Shown: in pieces, positions 23,874 to 32,951 of the stretch | Layout of the letters: the number at the start of each line of letters is the position of its first letter | Position numbering within the stretch: position 1 is the first letter of the stretch | NCBI GenBank assembly: GCA_016789345.1 | Contig: JAEURG010000239.1 | Coordinates: 1-34,801 of the forward strand | DNA length: 34,801 nucleotides | DNA from: Anaerolineales bacterium | GTDB taxonomy: Bacteria > Chloroflexota > Anaerolineae > Anaerolineales > Villigracilaceae | Direction: 5' to 3' | Position numbers and translations under genes: made by a program | The notes under the pieces: generated by a model | Database searches by the model: none | What the model saw: only the letters and a program-made list of their open reading frames with translations | Told to the model about the DNA's origin: nothing

Positions 23874-23909
23874 AAAATAAAAAACGCTCTCCGTTATCGG
23901 AGAGCGTTT
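23874..23909 (-). terminator. Intrinsic terminator/attenuator before the lysine operon
   Basis: Minus-strand hairpin AACGCTCTCCG, a 4-nt loop, and CGGAGAGCGTT (11 perfect pairs plus an A-U pair), followed by a U-rich tail. It ends about 15 nt before the homocitrate synthase start codon, leaving no room for a downstream promoter. Confidence 0.9.
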
Positions 23910-23939
23910 AGGTAAGCAGATAAAAAATAAATAAAGTTA

Positions 23940-24093: not shown

Positions 24094-24109
24094 TTACCCA
24101 AATGGATAA
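24094..24109. promoter_or_regulatory. Nitrogen-cluster dyad, site 1 (between lysine operon and gltB)
   Basis: TTACCC-AAAT-GGATAA, 11 of 12 half-site bases matching TTACCC-N4-GGGTAA. Its centre is 33 bp (about three helical turns) upstream of site 2. Confidence 0.6.
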
Positions 24110-24126
24110 CATTCATTTTTCAATAA

Positions 24127-24142
24127 GTACCCATATAGGTTA
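24127..24142 (+). promoter_or_regulatory. Nitrogen-cluster dyad, site 2 (gltB-proximal)
   Basis: GTACCC-ATAT-AGGTTA, a weaker match to the dyad but immediately upstream of the gltB -35 box and centred 30.5 bp before the -10, the same placement as at amt and glnA. Confidence 0.55.
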
Positions 24143-24170
24143 TTGAAAATATTTTTTTGCTCACTATCAT
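24143..24170 (+). promoter_or_regulatory. gltB promoter
   Basis: -35 TTGAAA (24143-24148), 16-nt spacer, -10 TATCAT (24165-24170); predicted leader about 32 nt to the ATG. Confidence 0.6.
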
Positions 24171-24208
24171 TAAAAGAATTTATCAATTCCTAACTGAGAT
24201 GAGGCACC

Positions 24209-27200
24209 ATGAAAAAAATACTTGCAAATAAAGAGGATGACCATCAGAAAAAAGTTAATTCATTTAATTGGTTAACTACTGAACATACCAAAACATGGTT
24301 AGATGAAAGAGATGCTTGTGCTTTAGTAGCATCTGTGCGCAAGAATGGTGAAGCGTCACATGGAAATTTAAAACGGGCACTCGCCGCATTAAGCATCATG
24401 GGGCATCGCAGTGGGGAAGTGAATGGAGAAGGGGATGGATGTGGTGTGATGACAGACATTCCACGTTTGTTATGGTCACAGGCATTAGAGCAAGAAGGTA
24501 AGCCCGGTTGGTTAGCAGAAGACCGCCGTTTTTTTGTGGGGCATTTGATGATTCCAAATACTGAAGAAAATATTTCTGATGTAAAGTCACGCATTATCAA
24601 CACGTTAAAAGAAATAGGCATAGACCTTTTATTAGAACGCCAGATTCTTACTCGTCCGCAAGTGTTGGGGAAAATGGCACGCCAGCAAGTTCCATACCTT
24701 TGGCAAATTGCTGGCATGGTAAGCCAAGGTCCACTAGAGCATGTGGAACGTACACTGTTTCAACTTGGTTTGTACATAGAAAAAAATACGAATGTTTCCA
24801 TCGCTTCACTTTCAAGCAATGTGGTTATTTATAAAGTGCGTGGTTCCATTGAAACGCTGTATCAATATTATCCAGAACTTCGTAACCCAGATTTCACAAC
24901 AGCCATCACAATTGGTCATGCGCGTTACTCAACCAACACTGCTACCATTTTTGAACGTGTGCAACCATTTAGTTTGTTAGGACATAACGGCGAAATTAAT
25001 ACGATTGCTCGTTTGCGCGAACAAGCCGAAATGCTCGGCGTAGATTTGCCGCGCGATGGAAGCGACTCGCAAGACCTTGACCGTTTGCTCGGGACATTGA
25101 TTCATCAATATCATTTTTCATTAACTGAATCAATGGAACTTGCATTTCCTCCACTCATTAGTGAAGTAGAAAAACTTTCTCCCGAATTGCAAACCATTTA
25201 TAAATATTATCGTCAGGCATTTGGTCCATTTGCACAAGGTCCTGCTGGAATTATTTCACGTTATGGTGATGAATGTGTTTTCAGTGTAGATGCACTTGGT
25301 TTGCGTCCGTTATGGTTTGGTGATACAGAAAAAGAATATTTCTTTTCTTCAGAAAAAGGTGTCTATCATCTTGACACAATGAATGTGGATCCGATTCCAC
25401 TTTCGCCCGGAGAAAAGATGCGTTTGCGAATTCATCGTGGACGAAATGTAGAAGTCTTTGATTATCCTGCTATTCAACAAAGAATGTTAAATCTTTCGAT
25501 AAGACGATTTGGTTCACTCGAAACGATGAGTCGTCGTTTACAGCATCAAGATGAATCACAAACCCGCTTCATTCTTGATGCTTCGACACGGCTCAGCACA
25601 AGCCTGAAACCTGATTCGCCAACCCTCGACAATCGTTTATCTGCTTTTGGTTGGGGACGTGAAGACCGCGAATGGGTGAGTGAACTTGCCAAAAATGGAG
25701 TTGACCCCATCAGTTCACTTGGCTTTGATGGTCCACTTGCACCGCTATCATCCGAACGACAAAACATTGCTGATTATTTCAAAGAAGCAGTTGCAGTGGT
25801 GACAAATCCCGCTATTGACCGTGAACGTGAAGTAGAACATTTTTCTACACAGATAGTTTTAGGGTCACGACCACCACTCATGCCGAACGAACTTGGTAAT
25901 GATGTCACTTTCACTTTAGATACTCCGCTTTTGCTAGAACATCCTAGTGATGCTGTAGAAACGATTGCATCAGATTCTGGTTGTGGAACATTGAATCAAT
26001 TGTTTGCAAAATTTTCAGAATCACAAATTGCTCAAATACAAATAGTCACACAACCAAATGAAAATACGGAGCAAGCTTTAGAACGAATCGCTCAAGCGTC
26101 TATTGAATCAGTTAAGAATGGTGCTCGAATTGTTTTGCTTGATGATTCATCTGCTTTTCAAAATGAAAATGGCTGGCTAGACCCAATGCTCGTATTAAGT
26201 ATCGTTGACCTTGCTTTACGTCGCACTTTCATTGAAGTTAATACTTCTGAATCACCAACCCCGCTTTCATTAAATGTAGATGGAAAAATTGATTTAGGTT
26301 TAATGGCTTCGCATCATTCAATCAACTTACGCAGACAGGCTTCAATTGTCTTACGCAGTGGAGCAATCCGCAATTTGCATGATTTGATAATGTCTATTGG
26401 CATGGGAGCAGATGCAGTTTCACCATACTTGATTTTTGAGTCTGCTACAAAAGATAAAGTTGAATTAACAAATGAAGAAATTAATCTACGTTTGAAACAT
26501 GTCTTGAAAGCATTACGTTCTGGTGTTGAAAAATGTACCAGCACAATGGGCATCCACGAATCACGCGGCTATGGACGTTTATTCTCCAGCATTGGGTTAA
26601 GTCCACAAGTTGCATCTGCATTGGGTACAGTTAATTATGGTGGTTCTGCACAAGGTGGTTTGCAATGGAAAGATATTGATGCAGATATTGAAGAACGTGC
26701 TAAGTCATATCACAGTGTGGGGCGTGGTGAACTTTCGCGCGTGAATCATTTTTATCCAAAAATTTGGAAGGCGGCTGGCAAGTTGGGGAAACAAGAATCA
26801 ACTTGGAGTGAGTATGAAGCGCATGCGCAATCCACTGCAAAATCAAATCCAGTCACCATTCGTCACATTCTTGATTTTCGTTATCAAAACGAATCAAATA
26901 TTGATTCACAAAAAGTGGATGCGAGCATTACATCGCATCAATTACCATTTTTGATTGCATCTATGTCATTTGGTTCGCAAGGTGAAGTTGCCTATCGTGC
27001 CTATGCAGAAGCGGCATTTCGTTTGAAAATGCTTTCGGTGAATGGGGAAGGTGGTGAGATTCCTGATTTGTTAGGAAGGTATCCATTCAATCGTGGTATT
27101 CAAATTGCATCGGGTCGTTTTGGAATTACTGCTGAAACAATCAATGCAACCAATTTGATTGAAATAAAAGTTGGTCAAGGTGCAAAGCCCGGCGAAGGCG

Positions 27201-29035
27201 GACATTTACCTGCGCGCAAAGTTACTCAAAAAGTTGCGGATGCACGCCATGCACAAAAAGGTGTTGATTTAATTTCGCCATCGAATAATCATGATATTTA
27301 TTCGATTGAAGATTTGGCGCAATTTATTGAAGAATTAAAAACGATAAATCCGAAAGCGCGTGTGGCTGTAAAAGTTCCTGTTGTGCCGGGCATTGGCATC
27401 ATTGCGGTTGGCATTGCAAAAGCCGAAGCCGATATTATTTATTTGACAGGCTTTGATGGTGGAACAGGTGCGGCACGTTCACATTCATTGAGATATGTTG
27501 GTTTGCCTGCTGAAATTGGAATTGTGGAAGCGCATCGTGCTTTAAGTGAATCTGGTTTGCGCGCGAAAGTTGAAATTTGGGCTGATGGTGGAGTCCGCTC
27601 CGCGGATGACACAGTTAAGTTAATGTGTTTGGGTGCTAATCGAATTGGCTTCGCCACATTACCAATGGTTGCAATTGGTTGTACGATTTGTAGAGATTGT
27701 CAGAGTGGGACATGCCATGTTGGAATCACGACTCAACTTGAAACAAAAGATGAAGCGACTCATTTAGGAATTAAACATTTTGCCCCGCGAGATTTTGAAA
27801 GTGCAACACAGTCATTGGTTAATGTGTTTACAGGTTTAGGCGATGGCGTAAAACAAATTGTTGCTAAACTTGGTTTTGATAATGTGCAAGATATTGTCGG
27901 AAGGTCTGATTTGCTGGTGCAAATATCACATTGTGAAAAAATTGATTTGAATGAAATGCTTATCCCTGCTGATGAATATTTGTTAGCGAAACAACCTGTA
28001 AAAATTTCAATGCCTATGCCTATCAATGAAACAGTGAGTATTGACCGTGGTCCATTACATCGTCCGCGCAATCATCTGACGACTGTTATATCCAATCTTG
28101 TGATGGAAAGTTTTACAACCTATCAACAAGATGTGGTTTTGTTTGAAGATGATAAAGTAACACCAGTAGACCGCGCATTAGGTACACATTTGACTGGTGC
28201 ATTGACTCGCTTCAAAAAGAATTGGGATTGGTCGCCGGGTCACGGTGGTTTAGGTGGGAATCGTGAAACGTGGCGTTTGCCAATGAAGAAACAAGAAGTA
28301 GATATTGATTCTGTGCCACGAACATCATTGCACTTTACAAGCAGTTCTGTACCGGGCAATGGATTAGGTGCTTATAATGCTGACCCTGTTCATATTCTTG
28401 TAGAAGGTGGTGCACAAGATGGTGTTGCCAAAGGAATTTCTGGTGGGCAAGTAGTGATTATGAAAGGCTATAACCATGACGGCAAATTAATTGATGGGTC
28501 AGTTGGAAAAAGCCTTGCCTATGGTGGCATTGGTGGAACTGTGATTGTGCAAGGTAATGCCGATTCGCGTGCTTGCATTCGTTTATCTGGTGCAGATGTA
28601 ATCATTGGCGGTGAAATCACCAAGCCATTAAATGATAGTCTTGGATTCATTGGCGCACGTGCAAATATCAAAGGTTTCTTGTGTGAATATATGACATCGG
28701 GTCGTGTAGTTGTGCTTGGTGACCCAGGTCCGTGGATGTGTGCAGGTATGACAGGTGGTGTTTTGTATTTACGTTTACAACCGCATTTGAACTTTGACCA
28801 ATCTGCTATTCAACGTCGACTTGCCAAAGGTGCTAAAGTGGTTGTACAAGAAGTGAATGAAAATGATTTGAAAAATTTGAAAGAGTTGCTGACTGTCTAC
28901 GCTGAAGAACTCAAGCATAATCATCAAAGTGAAGAAGCTAATAAAGTTAGTAATCTATTAGTAGATTGGAAGAATACGTTTGTGAAAGTGATTCCATTAT
29001 CTCAACAGGAAGATCAAAGATTCTCAACTGAATAA
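24209..29035 (+). CDS. gltB: Glutamate synthase, large (GltB-type) subunit
   Basis: Makes two glutamate from glutamine and 2-oxoglutarate, completing the GS-GOGAT cycle with the glnA product downstream. 1608 aa, about 100 longer than typical GltB. A 36-residue propeptide precedes the Ntn nucleophile Cys37 (LDERDACALVASVRKNG); the context is CALV rather than the common CGVG. The amidotransferase domain continues with GHARYSTNTATIFERVQPFS and LGHNGEINTIARLREQAEML. The FMN barrel has FLIASMSFGSQGEVAYRAYA and VGQGAKPGEGGHLPARKV. The 3Fe-4S ligands fit Cys1158, Cys1164 and Cys1169 (C-x5-C-x4-C). The C-terminal beta-helix GXGXG domain begins near residue 1290. A gltD partner is not adjacent, so it may be encoded elsewhere or the enzyme may use ferredoxin. 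GAGG lies 4 nt before the ATG. Two dyads precede its promoter. Confidence 0.95.
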   Translation: MKKILANKEDDHQKKVNSFNWLTTEHTKTWLDERDACALVASVRKNGEASHGNLKRALAALSIMGHRSGEVNGEGDGCGVMTDIPRLLWSQALEQEGKPGWLAEDRRFFVGHLMIPNTEENISDVKSRIINTLKEIGIDLLLERQILTRPQVLGKMARQQVPYLWQIAGMVSQGPLEHVERTLFQLGLYIEKNTNVSIASLSSNVVIYKVRGSIETLYQYYPELRNPDFTTAITIGHARYSTNTATIFERVQPFSLLGHNGEINTIARLREQAEMLGVDLPRDGSDSQDLDRLLGTLIHQYHFSLTESMELAFPPLISEVEKLSPELQTIYKYYRQAFGPFAQGPAGIISRYGDECVFSVDALGLRPLWFGDTEKEYFFSSEKGVYHLDTMNVDPIPLSPGEKMRLRIHRGRNVEVFDYPAIQQRMLNLSIRRFGSLETMSRRLQHQDESQTRFILDASTRLSTSLKPDSPTLDNRLSAFGWGREDREWVSELAKNGVDPISSLGFDGPLAPLSSERQNIADYFKEAVAVVTNPAIDREREVEHFSTQIVLGSRPPLMPNELGNDVTFTLDTPLLLEHPSDAVETIASDSGCGTLNQLFAKFSESQIAQIQIVTQPNENTEQALERIAQASIESVKNGARIVLLDDSSAFQNENGWLDPMLVLSIVDLALRRTFIEVNTSESPTPLSLNVDGKIDLGLMASHHSINLRRQASIVLRSGAIRNLHDLIMSIGMGADAVSPYLIFESATKDKVELTNEEINLRLKHVLKALRSGVEKCTSTMGIHESRGYGRLFSSIGLSPQVASALGTVNYGGSAQGGLQWKDIDADIEERAKSYHSVGRGELSRVNHFYPKIWKAAGKLGKQESTWSEYEAHAQSTAKSNPVTIRHILDFRYQNESNIDSQKVDASITSHQLPFLIASMSFGSQGEVAYRAYAEAAFRLKMLSVNGEGGEIPDLLGRYPFNRGIQIASGRFGITAETINATNLIEIKVGQGAKPGEGGHLPARKVTQKVADARHAQKGVDLISPSNNHDIYSIEDLAQFIEELKTINPKARVAVKVPVVPGIGIIAVGIAKAEADIIYLTGFDGGTGAARSHSLRYVGLPAEIGIVEAHRALSESGLRAKVEIWADGGVRSADDTVKLMCLGANRIGFATLPMVAIGCTICRDCQSGTCHVGITTQLETKDEATHLGIKHFAPRDFESATQSLVNVFTGLGDGVKQIVAKLGFDNVQDIVGRSDLLVQISHCEKIDLNEMLIPADEYLLAKQPVKISMPMPINETVSIDRGPLHRPRNHLTTVISNLVMESFTTYQQDVVLFEDDKVTPVDRALGTHLTGALTRFKKNWDWSPGHGGLGGNRETWRLPMKKQEVDIDSVPRTSLHFTSSSVPGNGLGAYNADPVHILVEGGAQDGVAKGISGGQVVIMKGYNHDGKLIDGSVGKSLAYGGIGGTVIVQGNADSRACIRLSGADVIIGGEITKPLNDSLGFIGARANIKGFLCEYMTSGRVVVLGDPGPWMCAGMTGGVLYLRLQPHLNFDQSAIQRRLAKGAKVVVQEVNENDLKNLKELLTVYAEELKHNHQSEEANKVSNLLVDWKNTFVKVIPLSQQEDQRFSTE

Positions 29036-29048
29036 TCCTTTTGGGTAA
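29033..29048 (+). promoter_or_regulatory. Nitrogen-cluster dyad, site 3 (at the gltB stop codon)
   Basis: TAATCC-TTTT-GGGTAA; the right half is perfect. The left half starts on the gltB stop codon. Centred 31.5 bp upstream of the -10 of the promoter at 29049-29077. Confidence 0.55.
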
Positions 29049-29077
29049 TTGATAATAATTGTTCTATTGAATAGAAT
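29049..29077 (+). promoter_or_regulatory. Promoter of a putative small RNA
   Basis: -35 TTGATA (29049-29054), 17-nt spacer, -10 TAGAAT (29072-29077), both 5 of 6 to consensus. Predicted start is near 29084. The next gene, amt, has its own promoter beyond a terminator. Confidence 0.6.
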
Positions 29078-29083
29078 TCAGGA

Positions 29084-29177
29084 ATGGTTGGCTTACGTTT
29101 CTAGCCTATGCCTCTCCTTGTTTAGCCCGTATGGGCAAATAAAGTGGATGAAAACATCTCATCCACTTTATTTTTTT
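29084..29177 (+). ncRNA. Putative nitrogen-regulated small RNA (about 90 nt)
   Basis: A short transcription unit lies between gltB and amt: promoter with an upstream dyad, about 50 nt of body, a small hairpin (GCCC-GTAT-GGGC, 29125-29136) and a strong terminator hairpin. There is no convincing ORF; the longest start-stop frames are about six codons. The body has a C/U-rich stretch including CTCCTT (29114-29119), which could pair with Shine-Dalgarno sequences such as AAGGAG before amt or glnA. Alternatively the region is only the gltB 3' end and the promoter is fortuitous. Confidence 0.45.
29137..29177 (+). terminator. Strong intrinsic terminator after gltB/small RNA
   Basis: 15-bp perfect stem, AAATAAAGTGGATGA (29137-29151) with its complement at 29159-29173, a 7-nt loop, and a T run reaching 29177. 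Confidence 0.92.
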
Positions 29178-29179
29178 AA

Positions 29180-29195
29180 TACTCCATTTGGGTAA
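29180..29195 (+). promoter_or_regulatory. Nitrogen-cluster dyad, site 4 (upstream of amt)
   Basis: TACTCC-ATTT-GGGTAA; perfect right half, poor left half (3/6). Its centre is 64 bp (about six helical turns) upstream of site 5. No promoter box at the usual distance, so it may be an auxiliary site. Confidence 0.45.
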
Positions 29196-29243
29196 TGGGA
29201 ATATCATTACAACATGATGAATGAAATGAATTTCATTATGAAA

Positions 29244-29259
29244 TAATCCATTAGGGTAA
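29244..29259 (+). promoter_or_regulatory. Nitrogen-cluster dyad, site 5 (amt-proximal)
   Basis: TAATCC-ATTA-GGGTAA directly before the amt -35 box and centred 30.5 bp before the -10. The 12-mer GGGTAATAGACT that runs into the -35 box is shared exactly with glnA. Confidence 0.65.
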
Positions 29260-29287
29260 TAGACTCTTTTCTCTGCATCATTAAAAT
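29260..29287 (+). promoter_or_regulatory. amt promoter
   Basis: -35 TAGACT (29260-29265, weak), 16-nt spacer, -10 TAAAAT (29282-29287); leader about 31 nt. A weak -35 next to the dyad fits an activated promoter. Confidence 0.6.
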
Positions 29288-29324
29288 CACATCTATTATC
29301 AATTTATGAAAAGGAGAATAGAAG

Positions 29325-30584
29325 ATGGAACAGATTAATGCAGGAGATACCGCTTGGATTCTTGTCGCCACTGCACTTGTATTGGTGATGACGCCAGCGC
29401 TCGCGTTTTTTTACGGCGGGATGGTTCGAAAAAAGAATGTGCTCTCAACACTGAACTTAAGTTTTATTACGATTGGTTTGATTAGTTTGCAGTGGGTTCT
29501 GATTGGTTACACCATTTCGTTTGGAACATCGGTTGGTGGCTTTTTCGGTGGCTTAGACTTTTTAGGTTTCAATGGAGTCGGGCAAGAACCGAATCCAAAT
29601 TATTCAGCTACATTGCCACATCTTGGCTTCGCCGCTTTTCAGATGATGTTCGCCATCATTACTCCAGCTTTGATTTCTGGAGCCATTGTTGAACGAATTA
29701 GTTTCAAGGCATATATTGTCTTCACATTGTTGTGGGCAACCCTTGTTTATAACCCAGTCGCTCACTGGGTGTGGGGTGTTGGTGGTGTGCTTCGCAATTT
29801 AGGTGCACTTGATTTTGCTGGTGGAACAGTCGTTCATATTACGGCAGGTTTTTCAGCCCTCGCAATTGCAATCGTACTTGGCAAACGTAAAGATTATGGT
29901 CAGACCAACATTGAAGCCGGTAATATTCCCTTCACTGTTTTAGGTGCAGGTTTGTTATGGATGGGTTGGTTTGGTTTCAATGGTGGCAGTTCGTTAGCCG
30001 CAAATGGATTGGCTTTCAATGCAATCGTCACAACAAATACCGCCGCCGCTGCTGCTGCCGTTGCTTGGATGTTCTTAAGTTGGAGAGAAGGTAAACCAAG
30101 CATTTTAGGAATTGCAACGGGTGCAGTTGTTGGTTTGGTAGCGATTACCCCAGCCGCTGGTTTTGTAACGCCTCTTGCCGCAATTGTAATTGGTGCGCTT
30201 GCCGCTCCGATTAGTTTTTACGCCATCAAACTTCGCCAAAAATGGGGCTTGGATGAGTCATTAGATGTATGGGCTTGTCATGGTGTAGGTGGTACATGGG
30301 GTGCGTTGGCAACTGGTTTATTTGCAACCACAGCAGTTAACTCTGCCGGTTTCGATGGTTTGTTCTATGGAAATCCAAATCAGTTGGCAGTGCAAGCCTT
30401 GGCTGTAGTTGTCACGATTGCATTTTCATTCGGTGTTACGTTCTTATTGGCTAAAGTATTAAGCGCAACTATTGGTTTACGTGTTACGGAAAGCCAAGAA
30501 GACACAGGCTTAGACATCAGTGAACATGGTGAAAAGGCTTACTCTGACGACGCATTCTCTGGCGCATTAAGTGGTGCAGACTAA
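29325..30584 (+). CDS. amt: Ammonium transporter, Amt family
   Basis: Inner-membrane ammonium channel/transporter feeding GS-GOGAT. 419 aa with about 11 hydrophobic segments. Family motifs: TPALAFFYGGMVRKKNVLST, FQMMFAIITPALISGAIVER, YNPVAHWVWGVGG, and GALDFAGGTVVHITAGFSAL carrying the conserved Asp and twin-His first pore His. Later come GLLWMGWFGFNGGSSLAANG and WACHGVGGTWGALATGLFAT with the second pore His. The C-terminal tail (LRVTESQEDTGLDISEHGEK) is the usual cytosolic regulatory part. AAGGAG lies upstream of the ATG. No glnK/glnB PII gene is adjacent, which is unusual for amt. A promoter with two dyads precedes it and a hairpin follows it. Confidence 0.97.
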   Translation: MEQINAGDTAWILVATALVLVMTPALAFFYGGMVRKKNVLSTLNLSFITIGLISLQWVLIGYTISFGTSVGGFFGGLDFLGFNGVGQEPNPNYSATLPHLGFAAFQMMFAIITPALISGAIVERISFKAYIVFTLLWATLVYNPVAHWVWGVGGVLRNLGALDFAGGTVVHITAGFSALAIAIVLGKRKDYGQTNIEAGNIPFTVLGAGLLWMGWFGFNGGSSLAANGLAFNAIVTTNTAAAAAAVAWMFLSWREGKPSILGIATGAVVGLVAITPAAGFVTPLAAIVIGALAAPISFYAIKLRQKWGLDESLDVWACHGVGGTWGALATGLFATTAVNSAGFDGLFYGNPNQLAVQALAVVVTIAFSFGVTFLLAKVLSATIGLRVTESQEDTGLDISEHGEKAYSDDAFSGALSGAD

Positions 30585-30610
30585 TTAATTTGAAAAGGTT
30601 TAATCAAGCA

Positions 30611-30646
30611 CATGGTGATTGGAACATCCAATCACCATGCTGTTTT
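30611..30646 (+). terminator. Intrinsic terminator after amt
   Basis: 12-bp perfect stem CATGGTGATTGG (30611-30622) and CCAATCACCATG (30628-30639), 5-nt loop, followed by a short TTTT tract. Confidence 0.75.
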
Positions 30647-30648
30647 AA

Positions 30649-30664
30649 GTACCCGTTTGGGTAA
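30649..30664 (+). promoter_or_regulatory. Nitrogen-cluster dyad, site 6 (glnA)
   Basis: GTACCC-GTTT-GGGTAA, the most symmetrical plus-strand copy (TACCC/GGGTA perfect). Centred 32.5 bp before the glnA -10 box. Confidence 0.7.
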
Positions 30665-30694
30665 TAGACTTACCCTACCCACAAACCCTATAAT
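30665..30694 (+). promoter_or_regulatory. glnA promoter
   Basis: -35 TAGACT (30665-30670, weak), 18-nt spacer, perfect -10 TATAAT (30689-30694); predicted leader about 42 nt. Confidence 0.65.
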
Positions 30695-32324: not shown

Positions 32325-32951
32325 ATGATTCCACTTCTTATCTCTTCTTTTATTCTCGCAATTTCTTTTTGTGCTCCGCCCGGAGTCGTAACAGCCGAAA
32401 CCATTCGACGCGGTTCTGCTCGTGGATTTATCCCCGCATTGTATGTTCAATTTGGTTCATTAGTAGGTGATACCACTTGGGCAATCATTGCATTAACAGG
32501 TTTGGCATTTGTAATTCAGAATCCAATTGCCAAAACGATTCTTAGTTTAATCGGCACTACTCTTATGCTTAAACTAGCATGGGATGCTTTCAAAGATGCT
32601 CGTCATAATAAAGAATTAGCAATTGATTCAACACCATCCACTCGCGGAGATTTTGCTAGTGGTGCTTTCCTTTCATTAGGCAATCCCATGAACATCGTCT
32701 TCTGGACTGGTCTTGGAACAACCGCATTTGCATCTATTGCAGGTAGTCCGCAACCGATTCATTTTGCTGTTTTCTTTACAGGCTTTTTATTTGGTGCAAT
32801 TGCATGGTGTTTTGTAATGGCTGGCTTAGTGGCTTGGGGACGAAAATTCTTAACCCCAACTTTTTTTCAAGGTCTCAACTTGATTTGTGGACTGGCGCTT
32901 GCATATTTTGCATTTCGCCTTAGTGTTGATTTGATTCAGAATCTTATATAA
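32325..32951 (+). CDS. LysE/RhtB-family amino-acid exporter
   Basis: 208 aa inner-membrane protein with about six hydrophobic segments. Family features: the N-terminal FCAPPGVVTAETIRRG (LysE/RhtB-type PPG signature after TM1), FGSLVGDTTWAIIALTG, and FLSLGNPMNIVFWTGLG (NPxxxxFW-type motif). The substrate cannot be read from sequence; members export basic or neutral amino acids. The start at 32325 has no Shine-Dalgarno sequence and lies 16 nt after a palindromic element, so its own promoter is unclear. The histidine kinase gene begins 11 nt after its stop, suggesting co-transcription. Confidence 0.85.
   Translation: MIPLLISSFILAISFCAPPGVVTAETIRRGSARGFIPALYVQFGSLVGDTTWAIIALTGLAFVIQNPIAKTILSLIGTTLMLKLAWDAFKDARHNKELAIDSTPSTRGDFASGAFLSLGNPMNIVFWTGLGTTAFASIAGSPQPIHFAVFFTGFLFGAIAWCFVMAGLVAWGRKFLTPTFFQGLNLICGLALAYFAFRLSVDLIQNLI

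Follow-up and report, generated by a model that had tools for sequence, protein, structure and literature searches.

A candidate nitrogen regulon and its putative two-component regulator in Anaerolineales-type Chloroflexota

Introduction

The nitrogen two-component system of Proteobacteria is NtrB-NtrC, which is encoded near glnA, controls glnA and amt, and includes a kinase (NtrB) with a PAS domain. In cyanobacteria, NtcA recognizes a GTA-N8-TAC operator and acts in class II geometry, from a single site by the -35 region at glnA. Homologues of glnA, amt and gltB are controlled in Bacillus by GlnR and TnrA, whose operator is TGTNA-N7-TNACA, and in Actinobacteria by a different GlnR, which carries an OmpR-type C-terminal helix-turn-helix (HTH). 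Among the LuxR-type regulators, NarL binds the half-site TACYYMT and ComA a 6-4-6 palindrome; activators of the LuxR and NtcA types sit near position -43. The present analysis concerns a 34,801-nucleotide stretch of DNA (contig JAEURG010000239.1, assembly GCA_016789345.1, forward strand; hereafter the window) from an Anaerolineales bacterium of the Villigracilaceae, in which six near-copies of a 16-base dyad lie around gltB, amt and glnA and a sensor kinase gene begins downstream of glnA. The dyads are probably the operators of a nitrogen regulon of Anaerolineales-type Chloroflexota, controlled by that GAF-domain kinase and the response regulator encoded behind it.

A search of the literature on nitrogen regulation in Chloroflexi and Anaerolineae, and on LuxR- or NarL-type control of glnA, found no such system in titles or abstract openings, and no nitrogen regulator is named there for this part of Chloroflexota. 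RegPrecise 3.0 (PMC3840689) includes a Chloroflexi collection of 30 transcription factor regulogs in 5 genomes; NtcA and GlnR are absent from the main text of that article in the portion consulted, and the database itself may hold an entry.

Dyad sites in the window

The initial annotation described six copies of TTACCC-N4-GGGTAA, confined to the gaps around gltB, amt and glnA. All six positions are correct and the near-copies are real, but no site is exact: the departures amount to one base at 24094 and 30649, two at 29033 and 29244, and three at 24127 and 29180. Five of the sites lie in the gaps, whereas 29033 overlaps the final 3 bases of gltB. The stable portion of the dyads is CC-N-TTT-GGGTAA.

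Mismatch counting is by itself weak evidence, because a loose scan (up to three mismatches) finds 16 matches in the window, where 100 shuffles average 6.95. A matrix was therefore built from 36 distinct sites (64 in total) found in other genomes; neither the window nor the glnA and gltB loci of its two closest relatives (L215 and L232) contributed to it. The six dyads take ranks 1 to 6 in the window (scores in Table 1) and the next match scores 11.1. In 100 dinucleotide shuffles of the window the mean maximum is 10.6 and the largest 19.7; four sites score above every shuffle, 29244 falls slightly below the largest, and 24127 is not significant alone. The case for 24127 comes from its conservation, a second site being present in the gltB promoters of L206, L215, L220, L232, L241 and L244.

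Conservation and target genes

Dyads are found before amt, glnA or gltB in amt-bearing relatives, namely Anaerolineae bacterium PMV_2.79 (L049), Anaerolineales bacterium ES-bin-309 (L050) and Anaerolineaceae UBA8523 (L056), the last with a perfect copy, ATTACCCATTTGGGTAAT. More distant loci in the same list of amt relatives (Caldilineaceae and others) are mostly without the dyad. Across 150 genomes of the family, the pattern TTACCC[AG]TTTGGGTAA with at most one mismatch finds matches in 55, with 94 matches in all against 61 for the reversed-pattern control. Since the number alone is not far above the control, it is the location of the matches that carries the argument.

The flanks were read for 92 sites, which are all distinct matches but one (G000:C166, examined separately as L019). 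Nitrogen, amino-acid or phosphoenolpyruvate (PEP) carboxykinase genes follow 65 of them: glnA (30), gltB (9), a second gltB type, gltB2 (4), amt (3), argG (5), metY (7), pckG (4), a glutamate dehydrogenase-like (gdh-like) gene (2) and lysZ (1). Most target names at loci outside the window come from BLAST against the window proteins or from reading by eye; in NCBIfam, with one example taken of each, argG, metY, pckG, lysZ and gltB2 pass a cut-off, and the gdh-like protein and the window gltB match below it. The initial annotation had expected a concentration of hits ahead of nitrogen genes and conservation of the sites at the glnA, amt and gltB orthologues, and both expectations are borne out. 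The targets differ from those it had guessed: argG, metY, pckG, gdh-like and lysZ appear, with no nirA or urea gene among the nameable targets. The predicted regulon is, as read from these genes, one of nitrogen and amino-acid assimilation. At metY orthologues (L226, L216, L231 and others) some 300-400 nucleotides (nt) separate the site from the start codon, and a leader RNA is possible there.

The glnA sites fall into two main types, GTACCC(A/G)TTTGGGTAA and TGCTCCATTTGGGTAA, and other genera have sites ahead of the same genes. In regulator-positive genomes (see below), 19 further glnA promoters escaped the strict pattern, and all 19 have a variant of the site, located 86 to 151 bases (303 in one case) upstream of the start codon; by shuffling, 18 of these reach p<=0.01 and that of G088 (L331) p=0.035. 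Five regulator-positive genomes (G021, G111, G126, G141 and G144) had no close glnA available to test.

Simpler scans are less informative. The exact TTACCC-N4-GGGTAA has matches in 25 of the 150 genomes, many of them within genes, and those with an RTTT centre are the informative ones. Scans of the window's own genome are dominated by chance, with 41 matches of CCNNNNGGGTAA against 100 for the reversed control and, allowing 2 mismatches, 86 of WAYCCNWWWGGGTAATT against 96. Beyond the window, this genome has intergenic sites ahead of a LacI regulator (P0001) and of a DUF6035/CoiA-like gene (P0002). At the latter kind of locus (L019, G000:C166) two dyad-like sites, at 464 and 539, lie 75 bp apart before a DUF6035/DUF7829/CoiA-nuclease-like gene for which a nitrogen role is not obvious. 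A dyad-like site at L024:1042 precedes a LacI-family regulator gene, and a site in G126 (L249) precedes a gene that looks LacI-like by eye. The LacI protein was considered as the dyad-binding regulator and rejected, as it has, by eye, its own operator-like repeat and nothing ties it to glnA.

These data bear on whether the dyads might be chance occurrences or elements acting at the RNA level, such as a terminator or a riboswitch. The roughly twofold excess of loose window matches over shuffled expectation and the modest excess of the family-wide counts would fit such an origin; against it stand the first six ranks given by a matrix from other genomes, the recurrence before the same genes across genera, the position of the glnA site upstream of the -10 box and the lack of any Rfam match in the window. 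This explanation is already disfavoured and very improbable, and it is with high probability that the sites can be taken as operators.

Promoter geometry

Four sites had been described as standing directly before a -35 box, centred 30.5-32.5 bp upstream of the -10 box. By eye this spacing holds for 24127, 29033, 29244 and 30649, and site 29180 has no clear -10 box at such a distance. The 12-mer GGGTAATAGACT shared by amt and glnA is present, and TAGACT is indeed a weak -35 box. The same spacing had been expected before nitrogen genes elsewhere, and the glnA promoters bear this out. In 48 of 48 glnA promoters (G088, L331, excluded) the best TATAAT match, searched for 16-31 nt after the site, begins 22, 23 or 24 nt after GGGTAA; it is complete (6/6) in 41 and 5/6 in 7. 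A -35-like T(A/G)GAC stands directly 3' of the site in 40 of the 48. The glnA site thus adjoins the -35 region, upstream of the -10 box, with its centre near -43. By eye, the -10 box at pckG lies about one helical turn farther from the site, and most of the metY and argG promoters inspected have a good -35 box well downstream of it.

The variation in position raises the alternative that the regulator is mainly a repressor, or an activator at some promoters and a repressor at others. The metY and argG sites, mostly far upstream of good -35 boxes, would be compatible with it, as would a site in L399 that, by eye, may be downstream of a promoter. On the other hand, at glnA the site adjoins a weak -35 box and leaves the -10 box free in 48 of 48 promoters, which is the geometry of an activator, and a repressor or mixed role is improbable. 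The activator near -43 proposed in the initial annotation for ammonium assimilation is well supported at the level of sequence; activation, as against repression, and a response to nitrogen are inferred.

The candidate regulator and its kinase

In relatives, glnA and a lysE-type gene are followed by a kinase that combines GAF domains with HATPase_c, and then by a response regulator of 359 residues, in which Pfam finds PF00072 in two stretches and PF00196 (GerE), above cut-off (receiver-receiver-GerE). In the window's genome the regulator gene is at G000:C118:2015-3094(-). One end of contig C118, read as its reverse complement, matches the final 100 bases of the window exactly, and this contig holds the remainder of the kinase and the regulator; the kinase gene was absent from the list of open reading frames (ORFs) because it runs off the contig. 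The kinase lies beside the regulator in L049, L050, L295, L399 and, across the contig end, in this genome, and most of 30 regulator loci, listed as ORFs only, have a long ORF directly upstream of the regulator. The kinase is probably soluble, although the L295 relative has one hydrophobic stretch (residues 154-172, mean hydropathy 2.0).

With the best 13 candidates of each genome scored, 53 of the 150 family genomes contain the regulator at E<=1e-40. Among the 30 genomes whose glnA has a near-perfect site, 29 carry the regulator; the thirtieth is G137, whose regulator is probably cut off, since its kinase stands at a contig end. In the phylum, at least 15 of 400 genomes have the regulator at E<=1e-70 (best 5 candidates scored). 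In a genome from another family of the order (G353, locus L399; regulator 46% identical), the pair adjoins gltB; a strong site (20.8) stands ahead of the kinase-regulator operon, and the stretch read contains no glnA. The regulator is the sole one seen repeatedly in glnA clusters; in L181 a small HTH gene is located close to glnA as well.

Across 32 regulators (33 loci tried, one unparsed) the recognition-helix stretch hardly varies, as expected if the operator is conserved. This stretch aligns with NarL (PDB 1je8 and 8u3b), and the GerE domain also matches VraR, DevR and ComA chains; none of the 25 NCBIfam models listed (of 88) reaches its cut-off for the regulator. The TACCC/GGGTA halves fit TACYYMT, with a spacing of 4 here where the 7-2-7 arrangement of NarL would give 6. 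The neighbouring two-component system is the best candidate for control of these sites, and its response regulator is most likely the protein that binds them.

Co-occurrence of regulator and sites

Near-perfect sites are present in 44 of 53 regulator-positive genomes and in 11 of 97 regulator-negative ones (p=1e-18), with 80 and 14 matches respectively and 35 and 26 in the reversed controls. The association must be read with the gene order in mind. When 30 regulator-negative genomes were checked, 29 were without a glnA of the window kind (E<=1e-120) and one had a 50% relative. Regulator and glnA site therefore co-occur by linkage, and only genes outside the cluster give a fair test.

The non-cluster set comprised argG, metY, pckG, the gdh-like gene, lysZ, gltB2 and an amidotransferase-like gene of G009. 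A site stands before such a target in 15 of 53 regulator-positive genomes, compared with 3 of 97 negative ones (p=1.2e-5); in a strict set without gltB2 and the G009 gene the counts are 14 of 53 and 1 of 97 (p=1.5e-6), and restriction to the genus leaves 12 of 27 against 1 of 28 (p=4e-4). Most of these sites are on contigs other than the regulator's. The gltB2 site of G144 was dropped from the unlinked set, as it lies about 13 kb from the regulator on one contig (with it the first count would be 16 of 53); argG of G117 was kept though some 35 kb separate it from the regulator on a shared contig, and without it the strict set gives 13 of 53 against 1 of 97 (p=5e-6). The metY promoters were also read directly for a subset of the metY genes identified, comprising 20 newly fetched positive and 20 negative genes plus 6 and 1 known from the pattern search; 9 of the 26 promoters from positive genomes have a site, as does 1 of the 21 from negative genomes (p=0.015), the stretches being short at contig ends in four positive cases and one negative.

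Several points weigh against control by the neighbouring system, besides the linkage already described. Among the newly fetched metY promoters taken by themselves, 3 of 20 positive and 0 of 20 negative have a site (p=0.23), so that the significance of the direct reading is due to sites already known from the pattern search. The co-occurrence p-values are too optimistic, because the genomes are related, and the absence of the regulator is judged on the 13 candidates scored per genome. Three genomes, G116 (argG, metY), G072 and G077 (gltB2), have target sites with no regulator or kinase found. Assembly gaps are a possible reason in all three; for G116, a recent loss or another binder is also among the possibilities. 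There is no evident target for 27 of the 92 sites read, the L399 site may lie downstream of a promoter, and near five more distant regulators (L400-L404, 42-49% identity) no good site was found, L400 having one weak match (10.8) inside a gene. In G116 one locus (L233, G116:C50) has sites before both metY and argG, with no glnA of the window kind, kinase or regulator found.

A rival explanation is that a different factor, for instance CRP/FNR-like and acting in the style of NtcA, binds the sites of the nitrogen regulon and that the kinase-regulator pair merely travels with glnA. A centre near -43 would suit a class II activator of the NtcA/CRP type too, and both the three genomes with sites and no detected regulator and the lack of a significant link in the newly fetched metY promoters would agree with it. 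However, non-cluster target sites track the regulator, no other regulator is seen repeatedly in the glnA cluster, and in L399 the site precedes the kinase-regulator pair itself. Co-occurrence was computed for the response regulator. Overall, a different binding factor is a rather unlikely explanation, though a likelier one than a repressor or mixed role.

Proposed mechanism and significance

Under control by the neighbouring pair, nitrogen shortage would lead the GAF kinase to phosphorylate the response regulator. A dimer of the regulator would then bind the 6-4-6 site centred near -43, beside the poor -35 box, and recruit RNA polymerase of the sigma-70 type at glnA, amt and gltB. Because the kinase and regulator genes lie behind glnA, the system may boost its own expression.

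In a broader proposal, for which the chances are about even, the GAF kinase and the double-receiver LuxR-type regulator would be a global nitrogen-control system of many Anaerolineae, working in this genome without P-II. Its regulon would extend over ammonium uptake, the glutamine synthetase-glutamate synthase pathway, glutamate dehydrogenase and PEP carboxykinase as well as the synthesis of arginine and methionine. Nitrogen status would be read directly, either by the GAF domains or through a signal upstream. The window's genome, whose assembly is 87% complete, yielded no P-II gene; in some relatives a P-II gene lies between amt and glnA (e.g. L218:9365-9760).

If this is correct, the role filled elsewhere by NtrC, NtcA or GlnR would here fall to a LuxR-type two-component system, and nitrogen assimilation would be tied to arginine, methionine and PEP metabolism. 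Since the evidence supplies an operator, a regulon and a specific candidate regulator together with its kinase, the question is directly testable.

Genes and other features of the window

The coordinates of the genes, sites and promoter elements are collected in Table 1. Between gltB and amt, a hairpin followed by a T run (29138-29176) looks terminator-like by eye, and amt is therefore likely a transcription unit of its own. By eye, a second hairpin (gctctccg...cggagagc, 23883-23910) lies between gltB and a divergent homocitrate-synthase-like gene, upstream of the latter. The minus strand from 1696 to 23858 carries a block of purine-like and then aminoadipate-lysine-pathway-like genes, divergent from gltB (also by eye).

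Table 1. Coordinates of genes, operator-like sites and promoter elements in the window
Feature	Position	Strand	Basis
Operator-like site, distal of two before gltB	24094..24109	-	Matrix score 25.3; conservation in relatives, before gltB
Operator-like site, proximal of two before gltB	24127..24142	+	Matrix score 13.0, weakest
Candidate -10 TATCAT for site 24127	24165-24170	+	By eye
gltB-like glutamate synthase large subunit, 1608 aa	24209..29035	+	NF008730 match, below cut-off
Operator-like site at gltB 3' end	29033..29048	+	Matrix score 20.1; counterpart in L232
Candidate -10 TAGAAT for site 29033	29072-29077	+	By eye
Operator-like site, distal before amt	29180..29195	+	Matrix score 23.8; identical 18-mer in L050
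Operator-like site, proximal before amt	29244..29259	+	Matrix score 19.6
Candidate -10 TAAAAT for site 29244	29282-29287	+	By eye
amt, ammonium transporter, 419 aa	29325..30584	+	Relatives; Pfam run on amt of L215
Operator-like site before glnA	30649..30664	+	Matrix score 28.7, top in window; one of 48 glnA promoters measured
Weak -35 box TAGACT adjoining glnA site	30665..30670	+	Sequence
glnA -10 box TATAAT	30689..30694	+	Sequence
glnA, type I glutamine synthetase, 468 aa	30744..32150	+	TIGR00653 above cut-off
LysE-type translocator gene	32325..32951	+	Pfam LysE on L218 counterpart
GAF-domain sensor kinase gene (candidate sensor), cut by contig end	32963..34801	+	GAF domains; HATPase_c in full-length relative L295

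Comparison with known systems

The initial annotation had set aside NtcA, the Bacillus GlnR/TnrA pair and NtrC, and the comparison by motif or promoter type agrees. The arrangement resembles NtrB-NtrC in having a kinase and a response regulator near glnA. However, the candidate has GerE and no sigma-54 AAA+ domain among its Pfam hits, its kinase has GAF domains where NtrB has PAS, and the glnA promoters have a TATAAT-type -10 box of the sigma-70 kind in 48 of 48 (sigma-54 boxes were not scanned for). With NtcA the locus shares a single site adjoining the -35 region at glnA, but by eye the sites are not GTA-N8-TAC and the candidate is not of the CRP type. The apparent targets glnA, amt and gltB are those of Bacillus GlnR/TnrA and of actinobacterial GlnR; by eye the sites do not match TGTNA-N7-TNACA of the former, and the candidate has GerE instead of the OmpR-type HTH of the latter.

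The closest resemblance in protein architecture is to the NarL/FixJ group of LuxR-type regulators (NarL, ComA, VraR and DevR), with which the candidate shares a receiver, a C-terminal GerE HTH and a partner kinase encoded beside it. The TACCC half-sites and the 6-4-6 spacing of the window also resemble NarL and ComA sites, apart from the difference in spacing from NarL noted above. The candidate differs from this group in its two receiver domains and in its apparent targets, which are the genes of ammonium assimilation.

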